NCBI GenBank assembly: GCA_017617065.1
Contig: JAFZWP010000004.1
Span: forward strand, 1 to 64,000
DNA length: 64,000 nucleotides
Direction of reading: 5' to 3'
From: Bacilli bacterium
GTDB taxonomy: Bacteria > Bacillota_I > Bacilli_A > ML615J-28 > CAG-698
Part shown: in pieces, positions 10,148 through 35,185 of the stretch
How the letters are laid out: the number at the start of each line of letters is the position of its first letter
Position numbering within the stretch: the stretch's first letter is position 1
Notes under the pieces: generated by a model
Seen by the model: the letters and a program-made list of their open reading frames with translations, nothing else
Databases searched by the model: none
What the model was told of the DNA's origin: nothing
Made by a program: the position numbers and the translations under genes

Positions 10148-10210
10148 ATAGTATAAATATTAAATGCGAGGTCTGTAATAGTTCACGAAATATCAATAGC
10201 TTAGGCTAAT

Positions 10211-10245
10211 TCTTTGTTACTTTTACAAAGTAACAAAGATTTTTA
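10211..10245 (+). terminator. Strong Rho-independent terminator of the rsmE operon
   Basis: Perfect 13-bp stem, TCTTTGTTACTTT (10211-10223) and AAAGTAACAAAGA (10227-10239), loop TAC, followed by a T tract. Confidence 0.95.
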
Positions 10246-10257
10246 TTTATAATAAGG

Positions 10258-10263
10258 TATAAT
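10258..10263 (+). promoter_or_regulatory. -10 box of the XRE-LRR gene
   Basis: Consensus TATAAT 27 bases before the ATG at 10290. The -35 region overlaps the preceding terminator and is not clear. Confidence 0.5.
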
Positions 10264-10289
10264 GTAATTGATAAAAGAGGTGTTTATCT

Positions 10290-12242
10290 ATGTTTAAAGA
10301 TAAACTTAAACAATTAAGAGAAAAAGAGAATCTTTCTCAACAAGAATTAGCAGACATTATATTTGTATCAAGAAGTGCTATTGCTAAATGGGAAAATGGA
10401 AACGGGCTACCAAGTAATGTTAATATCAAAGCAATTTGTGACCATTTTAATGTTAATGAAGAATGGTTAATTGAAAGAAAAGAATTAAAAGAAAATATTG
10501 AAAAATCGTATGATAAAGAAAAAAATATAAAAATTATATTTTTTGCATCTACCGCTTTTATGTTGCTGTTTTGTTTGCTAATTGGTGGAAGATATTGGCT
10601 TCATCGAATTGCAATAATTCTAACTGCAATTTATTTAATTTTCAAACTTCTTTTGAGTAATAACAAAGCTAATAAAATTATATGTATTTGTGCCGCTATT
10701 TTTAGTTTAATTATTAGCATTATTAATTGGTTAATTACAGCAATTCCTGAGCCATCAAACTTATTTAGAATATTTAGTTTATTTTCTAATAATGATAAAA
10801 TAAGCATTAATAATTTAAATATGACATTATCGCAATTATCATCAATATTAAATATTTTGATGCTAACGAGCGTTAATATATTATTCTTTATTATTTATAA
10901 AGATAAAAAAAGAAATAATATGAGTATGCCAGTTTTAATACTTATGTCAATTATTATTATGACAGGTGTATTTGCATCTATAGTTTTAAAAGAAAATAAT
11001 TACTATGAACTAATTATTCTTAGTGAAATATCAATAATTGAAGAAGAACAATATAGTTATAGAACTGATATTAAAAGTATTGTTTTAAATGATAATATTA
11101 CTACAATTAAAGATAATGCGTTTTATGAATGCACAGGTTTAGAAAGCATTACTATTCCAAGTAATGTAAAGAGTATTGGTAATTATGCTTTTTATAATTG
11201 TTCTAGTTTAAAAAGTATAGTTATTCCTAAAAGTGTAACAAAAATTGGTTTTAATGCATTTGCTGGCTGCGATAATTTAACTAGTGTAGTTATTGAAAAT
11301 GGGAATGAAGTATATGATTCAAGGGATAATTGTAATGGAATAATAAAAACAAGTAATAATTGTTTAATTATGGGGTTTTCTTCAACTGTTATACCAGATA
11401 CAGTTACATCGATTGAATCGTTTGCATTTTTTAATTGCAGAAGTCTTAAAAGTATTATTATTCCTGATAGCGTTACTTTGATACATGATTATGCATTTGC
11501 AGGTTGTAGCGGGCTAGAAAGTGTTATTCTTCCAAATAAAATAACAACGTTACCAGGTTATATGTTCCGAGATTGTACATCACTGAAAAGTATAACAATG
11601 CCAAATAACATAATGGTTATCGGAAATGGCGCATTTACTAATTGTAGTAGTTTAGTTGATGTTAAAATGCCTAATGACATTATCTCTATTCTTAGTTCTA
11701 CATTTTATGGATGCGAATCTTTAGAGAACATCAATATTCCAAATAGTGTAACTACAATATATGAATATGCATTTGGAAAATGCTCGAGTTTAAAGAATTT
11801 ATATATTTCAGCTTATGTTAACTCAATTGATCCATCTGCATTTGATGGATGCATTGGTCTTGAAAGTATTATTGTTGATGAAAACAATAAAGTGTTTGAT
11901 TCGCGCAATAATTGTAATGCAATCATTCATACTAGTTCTAATGCTTTATATGTTGGTTGCTCTAGTACAATTATTCCAGATTCTATTACGCAAATTAGAT
12001 ATGCTGCATTTATGGGACGCAGCAATTTAACTACTATTATTCTTCCAGAAAGCATAAAAGCGATTGGCAATTGTGCTTTTAGTGATTGTACTTTGCTTGA
12101 AACAATTATTTACAATGGAACTCAAGATCAATGGAATAAGATTAGGCTTGATGAACTATGGATACAAGGGGTAGAAGAGTTATTGATAATATGCACTGAT
12201 GCTAATATATCAATAAATGAAAATGGACAAATAAATGGTTAA
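10290..12242 (+). CDS. Membrane-spanning XRE-HTH / BspA-like leucine-rich-repeat fusion
   Basis: A 650-residue protein with three parts. Residues 1-65 are a canonical XRE/Cro helix-turn-helix (NLSQQELADIIFVSRSAIAKWENG). Residues about 78-235 hold five hydrophobic segments (starting IIFFASTAFMLLF, IAIILTAIYLIF, ICICAAIFSLII, ILNILMLTSVNILF and LILMSIIIMTGVF). Residues about 265-630 are some 12 BspA-type LRR_5 repeats of the form AFxxCxxLxSIxIPxSVxxI. With the HTH inside, five membrane passes place the repeats outside, so this may be a one-component sensor that binds an extracellular ligand and DNA. A nested duplication exists: the YDSRDNCNGII unit recurs as FDSRNNCNAII. The gene stands alone between its own promoter and a 149-base spacer. 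No function is demonstrated. Confidence 0.85.
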   Translation: MFKDKLKQLREKENLSQQELADIIFVSRSAIAKWENGNGLPSNVNIKAICDHFNVNEEWLIERKELKENIEKSYDKEKNIKIIFFASTAFMLLFCLLIGGRYWLHRIAIILTAIYLIFKLLLSNNKANKIICICAAIFSLIISIINWLITAIPEPSNLFRIFSLFSNNDKISINNLNMTLSQLSSILNILMLTSVNILFFIIYKDKKRNNMSMPVLILMSIIIMTGVFASIVLKENNYYELIILSEISIIEEEQYSYRTDIKSIVLNDNITTIKDNAFYECTGLESITIPSNVKSIGNYAFYNCSSLKSIVIPKSVTKIGFNAFAGCDNLTSVVIENGNEVYDSRDNCNGIIKTSNNCLIMGFSSTVIPDTVTSIESFAFFNCRSLKSIIIPDSVTLIHDYAFAGCSGLESVILPNKITTLPGYMFRDCTSLKSITMPNNIMVIGNGAFTNCSSLVDVKMPNDIISILSSTFYGCESLENINIPNSVTTIYEYAFGKCSSLKNLYISAYVNSIDPSAFDGCIGLESIIVDENNKVFDSRNNCNAIIHTSSNALYVGCSSTIIPDSITQIRYAAFMGRSNLTTIILPESIKAIGNCAFSDCTLLETIIYNGTQDQWNKIRLDELWIQGVEELLIICTDANISINENGQING

Positions 12243-12391
12243 AACAATTAAACCTCATTATTTGTTTAATAGTTCTAATTTTCTACACAGTCATTGTTGT
12301 TAAGATTATTAATTGATTCTTTATTATTTTGATACTTCACTTTTTTAAAAAGAAGAATGCTGTTTAATAGATGATTTTAAATGGAGGATAT

Positions 12392-13258
12392 ATGAAAAAA
12401 TATTTTATATTTTTATTATTGTTTTCATCTTTAGTACTTATTGGATGTTCTAGTCTTAGTATTACTAGTCCACTTGTTCAATTTGATGTAGATGAATATG
12501 TTGGTAGAAGCATTTATCCAGATGACTCAATGATTGGGAGTCTACAAGTCGAGTTGAAAGAGACAAAAATTAGAATTGGCGGTGAAAATGGCACTTACAA
12601 GTCATTTGAAGAATTAAAAATTCCAAGTAAATCATTTGAGGGAGTATTAGATAAAGATTATTTAGGATATAACACTATTAGAGGATTGCACTATACTAGT
12701 TTCACTGATGAAGAAGGTAATATTCGTGGAGGTTTTCTTTTTAATAGCAAAGAAAATGATTTATTATTAGCTGGCTATTCATATAATAATAAAGAATATA
12801 CAATTCTAACATGTTATAGGTTATTTAAAAAAGAATTCAAAAGACCAAGTGATTTTGAATTAGAATTTTGGATCGAAGAAGTTATTAATACAACTGAAAT
12901 TGGTAAACATGATTATTTTACTGATGATTATCATTATCCAGGATTTGAAATTCTTGATAAAGCATATTGTGCTAATTATCAAGGAACTGCAAAAGTTAGA
13001 CCTGATTATTATGTTTCTTATTGTATGGATTATCCAGAAGGAAAGACCGCAAAGATTGAAAAAATTGTAATTACTGATCCCGCTATTTCTATTTATGGAT
13101 TTAATGTGGGTATGACATATGAAGAGTTTGTAAAAATCTTTAAAAATCTAGGATTCGATGGTAGTGGAAATACAATGAGTCTTGGCAAATATATCATAAC
13201 TGTAGATCTTTGGGGAGGACATAAAATATCTATATCGTTATCGCCATATTCTAAGTAA
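12392..13258 (+). CDS. Hypothetical lipoprotein
   Basis: A 288-residue protein with a signal peptide and lipobox (LIGC, Cys19), so it is probably anchored to the outer face of the membrane. I recognise no domain. The ATG at 12392 is chosen because GGAGG lies just before it and the signal peptide begins with MKKYFIF; the in-frame ATG 7 codons earlier lacks these. The mature part is acidic and mixed alpha/beta, ending in a GYxxGMxYEEF-like segment (YGFNVGMTYEEF) that recalls small adaptor or PepSY-like folds, but I would not name it. It lies between the XRE-LRR gene and a convergent terminator shared with rpmG. Confidence 0.75.
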   Translation: MKKYFIFLLLFSSLVLIGCSSLSITSPLVQFDVDEYVGRSIYPDDSMIGSLQVELKETKIRIGGENGTYKSFEELKIPSKSFEGVLDKDYLGYNTIRGLHYTSFTDEEGNIRGGFLFNSKENDLLLAGYSYNNKEYTILTCYRLFKKEFKRPSDFELEFWIEEVINTTEIGKHDYFTDDYHYPGFEILDKAYCANYQGTAKVRPDYYVSYCMDYPEGKTAKIEKIVITDPAISIYGFNVGMTYEEFVKIFKNLGFDGSGNTMSLGKYIITVDLWGGHKISISLSPYSK

Positions 13259-13274
13259 ATATGAGAATTAAAAA

Positions 13275-13300
13275 AGTCACATCTTAATGATGTGACTATT
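13275..13300. terminator. Bidirectional terminator between the lipoprotein gene and rpmG
   Basis: Perfect 9-bp stem, AGTCACATC (13275-13283) and GATGTGACT (13289-13297), flanked by A-rich sequence on the left and T-rich on the right. It can serve both convergent genes. Confidence 0.85.
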
Positions 13301-13603: not shown

Positions 13604-13645
13604 GTAAGTATGAAATAATTGATTAGCAAATTAAAGGAGAATTAT

Positions 13646-14083
13646 ATGGAAGAACAAGTATTTATTGTTGAAGAAGTCGTTAAAGCGCCTCATTTAACTA
13701 AAGATGAAAAGAAAAAACTTAGAGTAATCAAAAGATTAATCAACAAAGAAATAAAAGGTCCACGCGCGGCTAAACTACTTGGAGTTACTACTAGACAAGT
13801 ACGTAACCTTAAAAGACAAGTTTTAGCTGAAGGCGATCAAGGAATTATTCATCGTAATAGATATAATAAACCAGTTAATACATATGATGAAGAAATTAGA
13901 TTAGAACTTGCTCATATTTATAGAACTGAATATAAAGGTATGAATTTTTCGGAATTTGCTCGCATTATGCAAGATGAAAGAGGATATGAACAATCACGTA
14001 GTACAATTTATAATATCTTAAGACAAAAACGTATTCGTTCTCCTCAAAGAAAAACAGTTAAAAGAGTTAAAAAAGAAGCATGA
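13646..14083 (+). CDS. Small HTH protein resembling a transposase DNA-binding N-terminus
   Basis: A 145-residue basic protein. Residues about 25-65 form a helix-turn-helix with the motif RAAKLLGVTTRQVRNLKRQV, as in the N-terminal DNA-binding part of IS481/IS3-like transposases. A second helical part (about 75-135) has a SRSTIYNILRQKRI segment like the second HTH of such transposases. There is no DDE catalytic core and no inverted repeats are seen around it. GGAGA lies before the ATG at 13646. It overlaps ispG by 4 bases (ATGA), so the two are translationally coupled. It could be a domesticated regulator or an IS remnant kept in frame. Confidence 0.7.
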   Translation: MEEQVFIVEEVVKAPHLTKDEKKKLRVIKRLINKEIKGPRAAKLLGVTTRQVRNLKRQVLAEGDQGIIHRNRYNKPVNTYDEEIRLELAHIYRTEYKGMNFSEFARIMQDERGYEQSRSTIYNILRQKRIRSPQRKTVKRVKKEA

Positions 14084-15212: not shown

Positions 15213-16538
15213 ATGTATATTAAAAAAATATTTGTTTTATCTTTTTTGTTTTTATTAGTATTTTTAAGTGGTTGTGTAGCTAGTGTTTCTTTATCAAAGA
15301 TGACCCTTTTACGTAGCCCTGAAGGTTTGAGCCATGAATATGATTATAAAGAAACAAAAGAAGATGATTATTTAATTTTTAAAGAAAAGATGCAACAATA
15401 CGCTTCTAAATTATCTGCTTATATTAATAAAGCAAATTATCAAGAAGGTAAAAATATAGCTTGTGCACCAATTTCAATCCAAATGTGCTTAGGCTTAGCC
15501 GCATCAGCAGCTAGTGGAGAAACTAGGGCCGAACTAATTAATGCTTTTGAAATCGATTATGATACTTTTTCTAAATATTATAAATTATATTTTAATGAAT
15601 TATGTTTAGAAATAATCAATGAATCTAAACAAGTAGAAGCAAAAATAGATTTAACTAACTCAATATGGATTGATAATGATGTCTCTTTATATGAAAAAGG
15701 ATTAGATGATCTTAAAGATAATTATTATTGTTATGCATATGAAGCTGATTTTGATGGTGATAATAAAACAACTAATCAAGCCATGAGAGAATTTATTAGA
15801 GAAAAGACTAATAAATTATTAGATCCAGAAATGAATATTGATGAAGACACAATGTTTGTTTTGATGAATACTTTATATCTAAAAGATTTATGGAATGATT
15901 TAGGTAATGACTTAAATTATGCAGATAGTAAATATAAATTTACTAATGTAGATGGAAGTGTATCAAATAACAAATTACTTGATGGTTATTATTTTGATGG
16001 AAGAACGATGAAAAATGATGATTATAGTGCTTTTTACACTAAAACTAATCATGGATTTAAACTTCATTTCATTAAAGCCAATGATACTAAATCTATTAAA
16101 GATTTATTTACACCAAAAATTATTAATTATGTAGTTAATTCAACTAATTATGTTTATCAAGATGATGAATTAATGGAAGAATATAAAACAAAATGTATAT
16201 TTCCAGAATTCAAAGCAGGCTGTGATTTAGATATTACTAAAATACTAGAAGAACAATTCTTAATTAAAACTATGTTTATTAATGGTGAGTGTGATTTTTC
16301 TAATCTTACAGATAATAAATATGGCTGTAGCGAAGTTAGACATATTTCTAAACTAGAAGTTACTAAAAAAGGAATTGAAGGCGCTGCTGTAACTTATATT
16401 GCCAAGGCTGGTGCCGCTGGACCCGGACCATATAAAACAGTATATGAAGAATTTGTAGTAGATAAAGAATTTGGATTCGTCTTAACATATCATGATATTA
16501 TTTTATTTAGTGGTATTGTAACTAATATTGATAAATAG
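15213..16538 (+). CDS. Serpin-family protease inhibitor, lipoprotein
   Basis: A 441-residue protein with a signal peptide and lipobox (LSGC, Cys21), so it is displayed on the cell surface. The serpin fold is indicated by NIACAPISIQMCLGLAASAA (81-100, the NxxxSPxSI helix-B region), ASGETRAEL just after it, the segment IDLTNSIWID, the beta-strand motif FVLMNTLYLKDLW near 223, a reactive-loop hinge EGAAVT (389-394) and the closing strand IILFSGIVTNI. The loop after the hinge is Ala/Gly-rich (AKAGAAGPGP), so the P1 residue is uncertain. The small hinge residues suggest an inhibitory serpin. Bacterial serpins in gut species are known to inhibit host or microbial serine proteases. It is followed 8 bases later by an SGNH hydrolase. 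Confidence 0.88.
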   Translation: MYIKKIFVLSFLFLLVFLSGCVASVSLSKMTLLRSPEGLSHEYDYKETKEDDYLIFKEKMQQYASKLSAYINKANYQEGKNIACAPISIQMCLGLAASAASGETRAELINAFEIDYDTFSKYYKLYFNELCLEIINESKQVEAKIDLTNSIWIDNDVSLYEKGLDDLKDNYYCYAYEADFDGDNKTTNQAMREFIREKTNKLLDPEMNIDEDTMFVLMNTLYLKDLWNDLGNDLNYADSKYKFTNVDGSVSNNKLLDGYYFDGRTMKNDDYSAFYTKTNHGFKLHFIKANDTKSIKDLFTPKIINYVVNSTNYVYQDDELMEEYKTKCIFPEFKAGCDLDITKILEEQFLIKTMFINGECDFSNLTDNKYGCSEVRHISKLEVTKKGIEGAAVTYIAKAGAAGPGPYKTVYEEFVVDKEFGFVLTYHDIILFSGIVTNIDK

Positions 16539-30584: not shown

Positions 30585-30598
30585 GAATCTGTATGATA

Positions 30599-30623
30599 TA
30601 TTTACGAACTATGTTCGTAAATA
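30599..30623. promoter_or_regulatory. Perfect palindromic operator downstream of the pectin-locus start site
   Basis: 11-bp arms TATTTACGAAC (30599-30609) and GTTCGTAAATA (30613-30623) with spacer TAT. It lies about +9 to +33 relative to the expected transcription start and before the GGAGG of the lipoprotein gene. Likely a repressor site; the ACGAAC half-site recurs before the transporter genes. It could also fold as an RNA hairpin. Confidence 0.7.
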
Positions 30624-30643
30624 CGCACACACAGGAGGAAGTT

Positions 30644-33600
30644 ATGCGCGTTTTTAAAAGAAGTTTAATTTTTGTAATTACGTTAGTAGTTGCATTGTTT
30701 GCACTTGTTGGTTGTGGAGACAAAGAAGTGCAAAGTATTAGTATTGATACTTCTAACTTAACGTTAGAAATCAATGAAGGAGAAACATTTAATTTTGAGA
30801 ACTTAAAAGTAGTTGCTCATTATCTAAAAAAAGATTTAGATATCGATTTAAGTGAAGTGACAATTGATACTTCATTAGTTGATACTACTAAAGCTGGTGA
30901 ATACTCAGTTACTGTTAAATATGGAGATTTTGAAGAATTCTTCAAAGTTAAAGTAAAAGCAGTTGTTAGATTAACCGATATTGAAGTTGATACATCAGCT
31001 TGCACATTATCTATAAAAGAAGGCGAAAGTCTTGATTTATCTAAAATTAAAGTTAAAACTGTTTATTCTAATGGTAATAAAGAAGAATTAGCAGCTAATG
31101 ATTATACTTTAGATCAAAGCGCTGTTAGACTTGATACAGCTGGATCTTATATTGTAAAAGTAACATATCAAGGAATTGAAAAATCATTTACTGTAACTGT
31201 ATCTAAAGAAGATGCTCCAGTTTTAGAAAGCATCGCAGTAAGTGGAGCAAAAACTAACTTCATGTTAGGTGAAGCTTTCACTACAACTGGTTTACAAGTT
31301 ATGGCTCATTATTCTAAAGGAGCAGATAAAGATGTTACAGTTTCAGCTACTGCTAGCCAAGTTGTTATTGAAGAAGAAGGTGACTACACTGTAACTATTA
31401 GTTATACTGAAGGTGGCGTTACTAAAACTGATACATACACTATTACTGTAGTTGATAAGATTGCAAGTATTGCAGTAGTTGTTGGCGATGGTAAAGTAGA
31501 ATATGCTCCAGGAGAAGAACTAGATATTTTAGGTGTAAGTGTAGTTGCTACACTTAAAGATGACACAACTTTAGAGTTAGTTGGTTGGGCTGCTTCATTA
31601 TATGATTTAGAAGGTAATGTAGTTGCTAATAACGTATTAGCTAAGACTGCTGATTATGTAGTTAAAGTTACTTATGGTAAACATGAAGCACAATATACTG
31701 TATCAGCTAGAGTTGGTGGATATATTAGTATCTCTACAGTAGAAGAATTCTTAGCAATGAGAGATCATAGTGGAGCAATTACAGATAAATATATCTTAAC
31801 TGCCGACTTAGATTTTGATGGCGTAGAGTTAAGTGAAGCTTTAGGTGGAGAATTTAAAGGTGAACTTAATGGTGATGGCCATAAATTATCTAACATTGTA
31901 TTTAATACTGCTACAGCTAAAGTTGGCGCATTATTTAATACAATTAATGGTGGAACTGTTAAGAATCTAACTCTATTCTCATGCTATGCTTCAAGCAGCG
32001 CAGAATCACTTGGTTTAATAGCTGGTTTATGTACAAATGGTACATTTGAAAATATTGAGTTTTCTTGTTGTACAGTTGCATCAACATCTTCATCTGGTTA
32101 TGCCGCATTAATCGCTGGTAGAAATGCTAGTGCTGGAACTATTTCAATGAGTAAGATTACAGTTAAGAATTTAACATCTGTAGCTGGTGTTAAATACGTT
32201 GGTGGCCTAATCGCTGACTTAACTAAAGGCACTACAATCACAATTAGCGATGTAGATGTAAATGTTACTTGTACATCAGGAAGCCAAATGGCAGCTTTAG
32301 TTGGTAGAGCAAGAAGTGGATCAATCGTTAATGTAAAGAACGCTATTATTAGATTTGAAATTGGCGTTGCTAATACAACTAATAAGACTGGTGCATTAAT
32401 CGATGGTGCTGACACAGCAACATTAAACGCAGAAAACGTGATTGTTGCAAGTAACACTTGCTTATTAGCTCAAACTAACCTAACTCAATCAGGCTTATTT
32501 AAAGGTCAAGGAAAAGCAACTGTCGCATTAAAGAATTGCTTCTATGTAGGTTTACCTGCTTTAGCTAATTATACTAAGACAACTGATACTGAATTAAATG
32601 CAAGTAAACAATATTATGAAGTTGTTAGTGGCGCTTATGTAGGTGTTGCTACACCAGATGTAGCAAATATTGCTAACTACTTTGAAATGTCAATTGATGG
32701 CGGAACACAATATGTAATTGGTGAAGCTGTATTAACTGATTTAGCAGGTCTTGGATTTGATTTAACTAATGTTTGGGAAGCAGATTCTAGATTTGTAGTT
32801 AAACTAAAAGATGCATCAGCTAACACACCAGCTGAAGATGCTACTGTTGTTAGACTTCAAGTTAATGCAAATAATGCTAAGACTCAATATTACGCTCTAG
32901 ATTCATTTGATCCAACTGGAATTATCGTAATCGCTACATATTCAGATGGCGTTGTTATTCCTCTAAATGAAAGTCAATATGGTGTTAAGATTTTATCTGA
33001 TGGTAATGATGTAACTGAGGATTTCGTTAACTTAGCAGTTGGTAAATATACTGTAGAAGTTGAAGCAGGAAGTGCTAAAGCAAGTTATAACATTGATATT
33101 GTTCAAGAAGTTGGCGTAGAAGTAATCGCTAGTGAAGGTAAGACAGTTTACCGCGTTGGTGACACACTTGATACTAAAGGAATCATTTCATTTATTTTAA
33201 TTTCTGATAATACTAAGAAATTAGCAACATCAGGACAAGTTACATTCACTGTTGTTAATGCAGATGAATCAACTCAAGCAGCAGATGTAGCATTAACTGC
33301 TAATGCAAAATTTGTAAAAGTAACTAGAGTTGTTAATGGAGAAGAATTATCTGACACATATCCAATTTATGTATTAGATAATGAATATAGCGATACATTA
33401 GTAGTAGTATATGTTAAACCACAAACTAATGGCTTAGTTGATGGTAAGATGTATTTTGAAAATGTTAATTTAGCTCTTAACTACTTAAGAAGCTTAAGCT
33501 TATCTAATGATACTATTAAAGAAATTAGACTTGCTAAAGGTACTTATACTGGTGCATTAACTATTGATATGGCTAATGTTAGAATCGTAAAAGATAGTGC

Positions 33601-35185
33601 TGAAGACAAAGCATCCGAAGTAGTAATTGCTTGCGGAAATGCTGCAGATACATTCAAACTAGATTTGAGTGCTACATTTGGAACAGAAGGCAGTGCAACT
33701 GTTACTGTTAAATCAAATGCTGTTGGATTCTATGCATATGGAGTTACATTTGCTAATACATTTGATTATCGTAATTCTACATTTGCTAACAAGCAAGCTT
33801 TAGCATTACTTTGTCAAGCAGATAAAGCAGAATTCGTAGAATGTAGATTCTTAGGTGTTCAAGATACATTAGAACCTAAGAATGGTCGTCAATATTATAA
33901 AGATTGTTACATTGAAGGTGCTGTAGACTTTATCTTTGGTAACAATGCAACAGTTTTATTTGAAGGATGTGAAATTCATTCAGTTACAAGATATAAGAGT
34001 GGAACAAATACTCCTGAAACTAACCAAGGTTACATTTGTGCTCCTAAAGGATTCTCAAGCGGAGCTACAACTGATGCTGTAACATATGGATATGTATTCT
34101 TAAGTTGTAACTTTACAGCTGATAGTGATATCCCTGCTGGTAGCGTTTCAATTGCTCGTCCATGGGGCGATCAAGCAAAAGTTGCTATTCTAAATTCTAC
34201 TTTAGGCGCTCATATATCTACACTTGGATATGATGGAACTGCTAAATCACGTTATGCAGATATGAGTGGAAATAAGCCAACTGGAGAAGGAGTTGTATTT
34301 GCAGAATACAACAACACTGGTGATGGTGCAATCAACACTGCTGTAGCTGGTGCTACAATCTTAACAGAAAGTGAAGCTGCAAATTACACAGCTGCTAAGA
34401 TCTTCGCTGCTACAAACGGACTTGTTAAATATGATGCAGCTTGGACATTACCTGATTTAGAAAATGGTTACTATGTATTACTTGGACTAGTTGCCAACTT
34501 ATCAGTTGGTGGCCAGTTTGATACACCTACTTTAGTTCATGTAGGTAAAACTGCTGCTACGGTAGAACTAGCTACATTTGAAGTTTATAATGTGATAGAA
34601 GAAGAAAATATCGAATTAGATGACTTAACAGTAGCTGCTGGAACTTTTGAATTAAGAGTATTTGTTGGAGAAACAAAAGTATTAAGTGCTGAAGTTGTTG
34701 TAAGAGCAGGAAGTGGACAAGTAGAAGTTAATACTTATTCATTTAATGCGTCAGATATGGAAAATGGTGATTATACAGCTGATTTTGCTGCTGGCACATC
34801 TGATTACTTCACAGTTCATTGTACTTCTGGTAAGAAATATACAGTTGATGGCAATAGTAAATCAATTGATGGTATGGACTTCACTAAGAGATTAAAATTC
34901 AATGGAGCTTCTGGAACATTCTCAAGTGAAAGATTTATTGAATTTGAAGTTGAAGGAACTGCTCATGTTAAGGTTTATGCATTATCATCATCTTCAAGCG
35001 ATAATACTAGAAAAGTTGTTTTATATGATAGCATCGGAACTAACGTTGGTGAATCTACAATTGATGGTAAGACAATTGCTGCTTATGAATTTGATTTAAC
35101 AGAAGCAGGAACATACTACATTGGTTGTGAAGTAAATGGTATCAATATTTACTATATCGAAGTAGTAGATACAGTAACTAAATAA
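30644..35185 (+). CDS. Surface lipoprotein pectin methylesterase (CE8) with Ig-like and GLUG-like repeats
   Basis: A 1513-residue lipoprotein (lipobox LVGC near residue 23). In order: four Ig-like domains (about 27-358), a GLUG-like repeat region (about 362-600), two more Ig-like domains (about 735-910), a CE8 pectinesterase domain (about 919-1220) and a C-terminal beta domain (about 1364-1513) resembling modules attached to pectinases in gut Firmicutes. The CE8 active site is complete: QALAL at 1051, QDT with Asp1074, DFIFG with Asp1095 and RPW with Arg1172. It removes methyl esters from pectin at the cell surface, preparing it for the PL9 lyase two genes downstream. The start at 30644 follows AGGAGG; the earlier in-frame ATG lies in the operator region. 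Confidence 0.92.
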   Translation: MRVFKRSLIFVITLVVALFALVGCGDKEVQSISIDTSNLTLEINEGETFNFENLKVVAHYLKKDLDIDLSEVTIDTSLVDTTKAGEYSVTVKYGDFEEFFKVKVKAVVRLTDIEVDTSACTLSIKEGESLDLSKIKVKTVYSNGNKEELAANDYTLDQSAVRLDTAGSYIVKVTYQGIEKSFTVTVSKEDAPVLESIAVSGAKTNFMLGEAFTTTGLQVMAHYSKGADKDVTVSATASQVVIEEEGDYTVTISYTEGGVTKTDTYTITVVDKIASIAVVVGDGKVEYAPGEELDILGVSVVATLKDDTTLELVGWAASLYDLEGNVVANNVLAKTADYVVKVTYGKHEAQYTVSARVGGYISISTVEEFLAMRDHSGAITDKYILTADLDFDGVELSEALGGEFKGELNGDGHKLSNIVFNTATAKVGALFNTINGGTVKNLTLFSCYASSSAESLGLIAGLCTNGTFENIEFSCCTVASTSSSGYAALIAGRNASAGTISMSKITVKNLTSVAGVKYVGGLIADLTKGTTITISDVDVNVTCTSGSQMAALVGRARSGSIVNVKNAIIRFEIGVANTTNKTGALIDGADTATLNAENVIVASNTCLLAQTNLTQSGLFKGQGKATVALKNCFYVGLPALANYTKTTDTELNASKQYYEVVSGAYVGVATPDVANIANYFEMSIDGGTQYVIGEAVLTDLAGLGFDLTNVWEADSRFVVKLKDASANTPAEDATVVRLQVNANNAKTQYYALDSFDPTGIIVIATYSDGVVIPLNESQYGVKILSDGNDVTEDFVNLAVGKYTVEVEAGSAKASYNIDIVQEVGVEVIASEGKTVYRVGDTLDTKGIISFILISDNTKKLATSGQVTFTVVNADESTQAADVALTANAKFVKVTRVVNGEELSDTYPIYVLDNEYSDTLVVVYVKPQTNGLVDGKMYFENVNLALNYLRSLSLSNDTIKEIRLAKGTYTGALTIDMANVRIVKDSAEDKASEVVIACGNAADTFKLDLSATFGTEGSATVTVKSNAVGFYAYGVTFANTFDYRNSTFANKQALALLCQADKAEFVECRFLGVQDTLEPKNGRQYYKDCYIEGAVDFIFGNNATVLFEGCEIHSVTRYKSGTNTPETNQGYICAPKGFSSGATTDAVTYGYVFLSCNFTADSDIPAGSVSIARPWGDQAKVAILNSTLGAHISTLGYDGTAKSRYADMSGNKPTGEGVVFAEYNNTGDGAINTAVAGATILTESEAANYTAAKIFAATNGLVKYDAAWTLPDLENGYYVLLGLVANLSVGGQFDTPTLVHVGKTAATVELATFEVYNVIEEENIELDDLTVAAGTFELRVFVGETKVLSAEVVVRAGSGQVEVNTYSFNASDMENGDYTADFAAGTSDYFTVHCTSGKKYTVDGNSKSIDGMDFTKRLKFNGASGTFSSERFIEFEVEGTAHVKVYALSSSSSDNTRKVVLYDSIGTNVGESTIDGKTIAAYEFDLTEAGTYYIGCEVNGINIYYIEVVDTVTK

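Follow-up and report, generated by a model that had tools for sequence, protein, structure and literature searches.

For BcrR (PMC3968067) and for transmembrane transcription regulators (PMC10269533), the way in which a membrane-bound factor reaches its DNA and acts there is described as an open question. The locus described here raises it in a particular form: does a single chain that begins with an XRE-type HTH domain and ends in a BspA-type LRR array connect the cell surface directly to a promoter, and to which promoter? The gene lies in a 64,000-nucleotide stretch of a Bacilli genome, referred to below as the window, and its host is a gut bacterium.

Architecture and topology of the chain

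A sequence-only reading had described an XRE HTH, five membrane segments and BspA-type repeats in one polypeptide. The open reading frame, Pfam, hydropathy and AlphaFold2 all agree with this description. The features of the chain are:

10290..12242, +, coding sequence of the XRE HTH, five-TM, BspA-type LRR protein; an intact single ORF of 650 aa
10305..10469, +, HTH_3 domain, residues 6-60 (Pfam E 4e-14; pLDDT above 90)
10368..10397, +, recognition helix SRSAIAKWEN, residues 27-36, identified by family covariation of helix residues with the promoter half-site
10527..10586, +, TM1, residues 80-99 (hydropathy and AlphaFold2)
10596..10655, +, TM2, residues 103-122 (hydropathy and AlphaFold2)
10674..10742, +, TM3, residues 129-151 (hydropathy and AlphaFold2)
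10836..10898, +, TM4, residues 183-203, aligned with the last helix of a 208-aa relative in genome G019
10926..10991, +, TM5, residues 213-234 (hydropathy and AlphaFold2), not in the G019 relative
11076..12170, +, residues 263-627, BspA-type LRR array with about 14 repeats, each 23 residues long (Pfam, AlphaFold2 and fold matches)

The hydropathy profile has five peaks, at approximately residues 80-98, 104-122, 131-149, 184-202 and 215-233, which match AlphaFold2 helices at 63-97, 103-122, 126-151, 180-208 and 213-235. Both approaches thus give five passes, not an even number. The AlphaFold2 model (pLDDT 80, pTM 0.60) combines a confident HTH, five helices and a regular LRR solenoid; the membrane region is of low confidence, mostly 50-70. 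Modelling the N-terminal part alone gave a pLDDT of 62 and added no insight.

The C-terminal part has the LRR_5 repeats and the 23-residue period of BspA-type proteins. Four LRR_5 stretches (Pfam E 9e-87) cover most of the C-terminal 390 residues, and solenoid strands recur every 23 residues in the model (263, 286, 309, 332, 388 ... 605). About 12 repeats had been counted previously; the modelled strands instead give about 14, and the array also holds two 'YDSR(D/N)NCN..I' inserts. Fold comparison matches the solenoid to the solved BspA-type LRR structures 4gt6, 4fs7, 4cp6 and 6mlx.

The earlier placement of the HTH inside and the repeats outside stands as a prediction. An N-in/C-out orientation is consistent with five TM segments and with the charge distribution, with four K/R residues in the loop preceding TM5 and seven acidic and two basic residues directly after it. 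The N-terminal secretion signal of BspA-type proteins is absent, the N-terminus being the HTH, and export of the LRR array would use TM5.

In 43 genomes of the order, the sole relative of the membrane region outside the protein's own genome is found in G019, which belongs to another genus of the same family. It shares 62% identity with the window protein over residues 1-205. With an HTH and four TM segments, it is complete at 208 aa, its sequence stopping at ...HNKINAKKK just past TM4. At this point the window protein reads ...YKDKKRNN and continues into TM5 and the LRR array, which are therefore an added part. The positive charge of the ends agrees with an N-in/C-in topology for the four-TM form, so that TM5 would place the LRR array outside. 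Among the loci examined, neither a donor nor a homologue was found for the TM5-LRR junction. The third-position GC is equal in the two halves of the gene (0.152 and 0.150) and thus gives no compositional sign of a recent join. Clostridia proteins with four TM segments align poorly with the window protein over the TM region, and we therefore restrict the claim of TM homology to the G019 relative.

The membrane-tethered XRE family and its predicted operator

Across 395 genomes of the class, many XRE proteins were found to have TM segments right after the HTH. Some have four TM segments in about 200 aa, some a single TM segment and an outer domain of 100-550 aa; other layouts occur too. The window HTH belongs to this membrane-tethered Bacilli/Clostridia family. 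In all complete members examined with the helix SRSA[IV]AK[WY]E, the HTH adjoins a membrane helix, and the remainder is either a TM bundle only or an outer part that differs greatly between members.

Family genes encoding the helix SRSA[IV]AK[WY]E have pairs of GTAAC half-sites, 10-11 or 20-22 bp apart, in their own promoters. Counted as a direct pair with a spacing of 9-11 or 19-22 bp in a 160-nt stretch, the motif is present at 17 of 19 such genes of the discovery set and at 0 of 43 XRE genes whose helix differs (Fisher 2e-13); dinucleotide shuffling predicts 0.018 of 19. A separate contig scan provided a held-out set, in which 386 relatives were reduced to 80 loci and 66 members not previously used. 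The pair recurs in 57 of these 66 SRSA[IV]AK[WY]E members. The promoter counts overstate independence because family members are related by descent, but common descent by itself does not explain why the site should change when the helix does. Helices with KWE[N/S/A] go with GTAAC (75/81), those with KWEQ or KWEL with GTATC pairs (5/6), SRSV with AGAAC (2/2) and SRST with GGAAC (1/1), and none of these classes has cross hits with the other half-sites. This covariation is the strongest sign that the family HTH reads DNA.

The promoter geometry is also constrained. In 49 of 52 clear cases the proximal GTAAC lies 27-28 or 38-40 bp ahead of the best TATAAT, with 5.4 expected under a uniform distribution, and the two distance classes differ by one helical turn. 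The -35 boxes of family promoters are mostly poor.

Several other loci were noted during the survey. At L050:1501-2322 (+) and L077 (genomes G038 and G039), an XRE HTH of the same type is joined to a methyltransferase-like domain, has no TM segment, and is preceded by promoter GTATC repeats 20 bp apart. Tandem XRE-TM family genes occur in L051/L136, L127 and L157, each with its own GTAAC pair except for one L127 and one L157 copy. L082 (G039) encodes another odd-numbered layout, with an XRE HTH, five TM segments and an LRR-free outer domain roughly 400 aa long.

Promoter, segment and proposed mechanism

The window gene has its own promoter, as the sequence-only reading had stated, but it does not stand alone: a lipoprotein gene follows on the same strand within a shared, insertion-like segment. 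The relevant features are:

10153..13265, +, 3.1-kb segment of the window genome, which the colinear same-genus genome G021 lacks at this site
10211..10239, unstranded, perfect inverted repeat TCTTTGTTACTTT-TAC-AAAGTAACAAAGA with GTTAC at 10216-10220 and GTAAC at 10230-10234; probable operator, also terminator-like
10258..10263, +, -10 element TATAAT; GTAAC starts 28 bp ahead of it, at 10230, in a distance class common to the family
10276..10282, +, ribosome-binding-site-like AGAGGTG, assigned from sequence
12371..13258, +, second of the segment's two genes, encoding a lipoprotein (12392 is an alternative start); an ORF with no Pfam or NCBIfam match
13275..13297, unstranded, hairpin terminator; ancestrally it ended the pseudouridine synthase gene that lies upstream, and it also serves rpmG on the opposite strand

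The window dyad has 13-bp arms and carries its GTAAC/GTTAC pair 14 bp apart and inverted, where the family arrangement is usually direct; it is the sole copy of its kind in the genome. The hairpin could alternatively act as a terminator. At the corresponding place, the G019 promoter has the usual direct GTAAC pair with 10 bp spacing, and the 10-mer AAAGTAACAA is common to both promoters. The predicted DNA binding by the HTH, as proposed earlier, is supported by this site in the gene's own promoter together with the helix-site covariation.

The flanks of G021 are colinear with the window on both sides at about 85% DNA identity, and what is missing there is exactly the XRE-LRR and lipoprotein genes. 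In G021 the pseudouridine synthase gene runs straight into the hairpin shared with rpmG, while in the window the same hairpin follows the lipoprotein gene; the two genes therefore behave as one segment, which was either gained in the window genome or lost in G021. We found no terminator between the two genes and no homologue of the lipoprotein gene in 27 other family genomes.

Elsewhere in the window, positions 13619-14083 hold a 154-aa ORF that resembles the N-terminal part of ISNCY-type transposases and ends at the ispG start. It is 96% identical in G021, compared with 86% for ispG, and thus looks maintained. A Serpin with a lipoprotein-like signal (15213-16538; PF00079, E 3.6e-32) occupies the same place in G021. 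A 1530-aa protein (30593-35185) with a pectinesterase domain and four Big_3 domains suggests pectin use. In the same genome (G000:C20, L006:139-1776, -), a 545-aa ORF joins an XRE HTH (residues 5-63) to a complete PGM_PMM I-IV phosphoglucosamine-mutase-type enzyme.

Pattern searches of the genome (G000) found no direct-pair GTAAC site elsewhere, and other dyads occur at control level. The other matches to a half-site plus -10 element that we examined there lie within or overlap genes, and none is promoter-placed. In 14 relatives, sites with 10 or 20-22 bp spacing are mostly at the genes' own promoters, the remainder being near control level. Many family members are solitary; the downstream gene is not conserved and is often on the other strand, and no common downstream effector gene was found in the family. 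The target is therefore probably the gene itself or its segment rather than a regulon: the window protein probably regulates itself or its own small gene cassette.

We regard it as reasonably probable that the protein is a membrane-tethered autoregulator with a BcrR-like base, an added TM5-LRR part and a GTAAC operator. It would act as a one-component regulator with the HTH and four-TM base plan of BcrR, and a fifth membrane helix would bring the BspA-type LRR array out of the cell. The HTH, held at the membrane, would bind GTAAC half-sites by the -35 region of its own promoter and thereby control the two-gene segment, the regulator and the lipoprotein presumably being co-transcribed. A ligand or state of the LRR array, as a putative sensor, or of the membrane bundle would set the activity of the regulator. 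Activation seems favoured over repression because the distance from site to -10 element is conserved and helically phased and the -35 boxes are poor, a promoter geometry that appears to resemble that of activators contacting RNA polymerase.

Alternatively, it may be the LRR array, together with the lipoprotein, that does the work, such as adhesion or binding, with the HTH and anchor only limiting copy number and no outside signal being read. About one chance in four seems a fitting weight for this account, in which the own promoter is the only promoter-placed site found, other BspA-type proteins with matching folds are surface proteins, and downstream genes are unconserved around members that are often solitary. 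However, the HTH-TM unit is kept across members with very different outer parts, as expected of sensors, and BcrR, which has the same base plan, is a sensor-activator (PMC3968067).

TM5 could also be an internal signal peptide, in which case the LRR array would be released or held apart and the four-TM HTH part would work alone like its G019 relative, which is complete without LRR. A signal-peptidase-like (-3,-1)-type site, VFA|S, indeed lies in TM5 after residue 229, and the positive KDKKRNN stretch precedes the hydrophobic segment. We consider such processing rather improbable, as Pfam finds only LRR and HTH, with no cell-wall anchor or other retention domain at the LRR C-terminus, and as three other XRE-TM-LRR proteins connect HTH and LRR via one TM segment.

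An assembly or binning chimera of two genes is very improbable, even though the draft genome has 24 contigs and an estimated contamination of 5%, and the exact architecture was seen once: the junction is in frame, the third-position GC is the same in both halves, both flanks of the gene are colinear with G021, and the contig is 162 kb long. RodZ also consists of an HTH, one TM segment and an outer domain, but an HTH that serves as a protein-binding module for the cytoskeleton and does not bind DNA is scarcely credible here, given a recognition helix that covaries with the promoter motif across the family, an HTH_3 rather than RodZ-type HTH_25 Pfam match, and five TM segments rather than one.

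Comparison with known systems

Together, these observations raise the possibility, to which we would give a little under even chances, that a large, essentially unstudied membrane-tethered XRE family of Bacilli and Clostridia reads a common half-site (GTAAC, changing in a predictable way with two residues of the helix), does so almost exclusively at its own promoters, and exchanges its outer part freely. The window protein would then be the case in which an LRR array serves as the receptor in a kinase-free LRR-to-DNA chain. The family has hundreds of members. Since its operator is predicted, a code links helix to site and the promoter geometry is fixed, binding, activation and signal input are testable together. 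In the window protein a modular LRR ectodomain comes on top; in other systems such scaffolds recognise ligands.

The kinase-free surface-to-DNA receptor of the sequence-only reading is of the correct kind, but that kind is already known. A catalogue of 50,302 transmembrane transcription regulators (TTRs), in which HTH domains are most frequent (Demey et al., PMC10269533), together with BcrR, establishes the idea. Like ToxR, CadC and TcpP, the window protein combines a DNA-binding domain with at least one TM segment, in this case five, in one chain without a kinase; LRR domains are not mentioned in the main text of that study (PMC10269533). In the library of papers searched by phrase, nothing relevant turned up on XRE with LRR or on membrane-bound XRE proteins. 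Characterised proteobacterial TTRs have a winged helix and one TM segment. PADLOC, which detects defence systems, gave only generic HTH matches for the window protein, and viral relatives amounted to 20 weak HTH matches.

The BspA-type surface proteins TpLRR (6mlx), PcpA (4cp6) and that of F. prausnitzii (4gt6) share the repeat consensus and solenoid fold of the window protein but lack an HTH head. LRR tails are rare in the family, occurring besides the window in L052 (G383), L078 (G039) and L081 (G038). These three share the HTH-TM-LRR order and have own-promoter repeats that match their HTH type. In contrast to the window protein, each has one TM segment and no TM bundle. L078 and L081 have the helix SRSVIAKWE with AGAAC repeats, and the L078 array matches LRR_5 at E 7e-63; the L052 array is degenerate, seen by phmmer but not by Pfam at E 0.01. 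The different membrane layout, and in two cases the different helix type, suggest separate origins of the LRR tails.

A characterised parallel in layout is BcrR, the bacitracin sensor and activator of Enterococcus faecalis, which reportedly regulates bcrAB on its own (PMC3968067). Its gene surfaced in a tblastn search against plasmids, and the HTH domains are homologous, with 35% identity over residues 3-109 (E 3e-18). The recognition helix of BcrR is SRTAISKWES. The BcrR operator is reported as GACA-N7-TGTC, and a dyad of this type is visible in the sequence. The bcrR gene adjoins an ABC transporter, and BcrR has neither LRR nor a fifth TM segment; the window gene lacks the GACA-N7-TGTC operator and the bcrABD neighbours, having GTAAC sites and pseudouridine synthase and lipoprotein genes instead. 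Both are membrane-bound one-component proteins in which an XRE HTH is followed by a hydrophobic four-TM region (BcrR is 204 aa long). The window protein has a base plan like that of BcrR-type regulators, which consist of an XRE HTH and a four-TM bundle of about 200 aa; the likeness in the TM part is one of layout, and a fifth TM segment and an LRR array are added.
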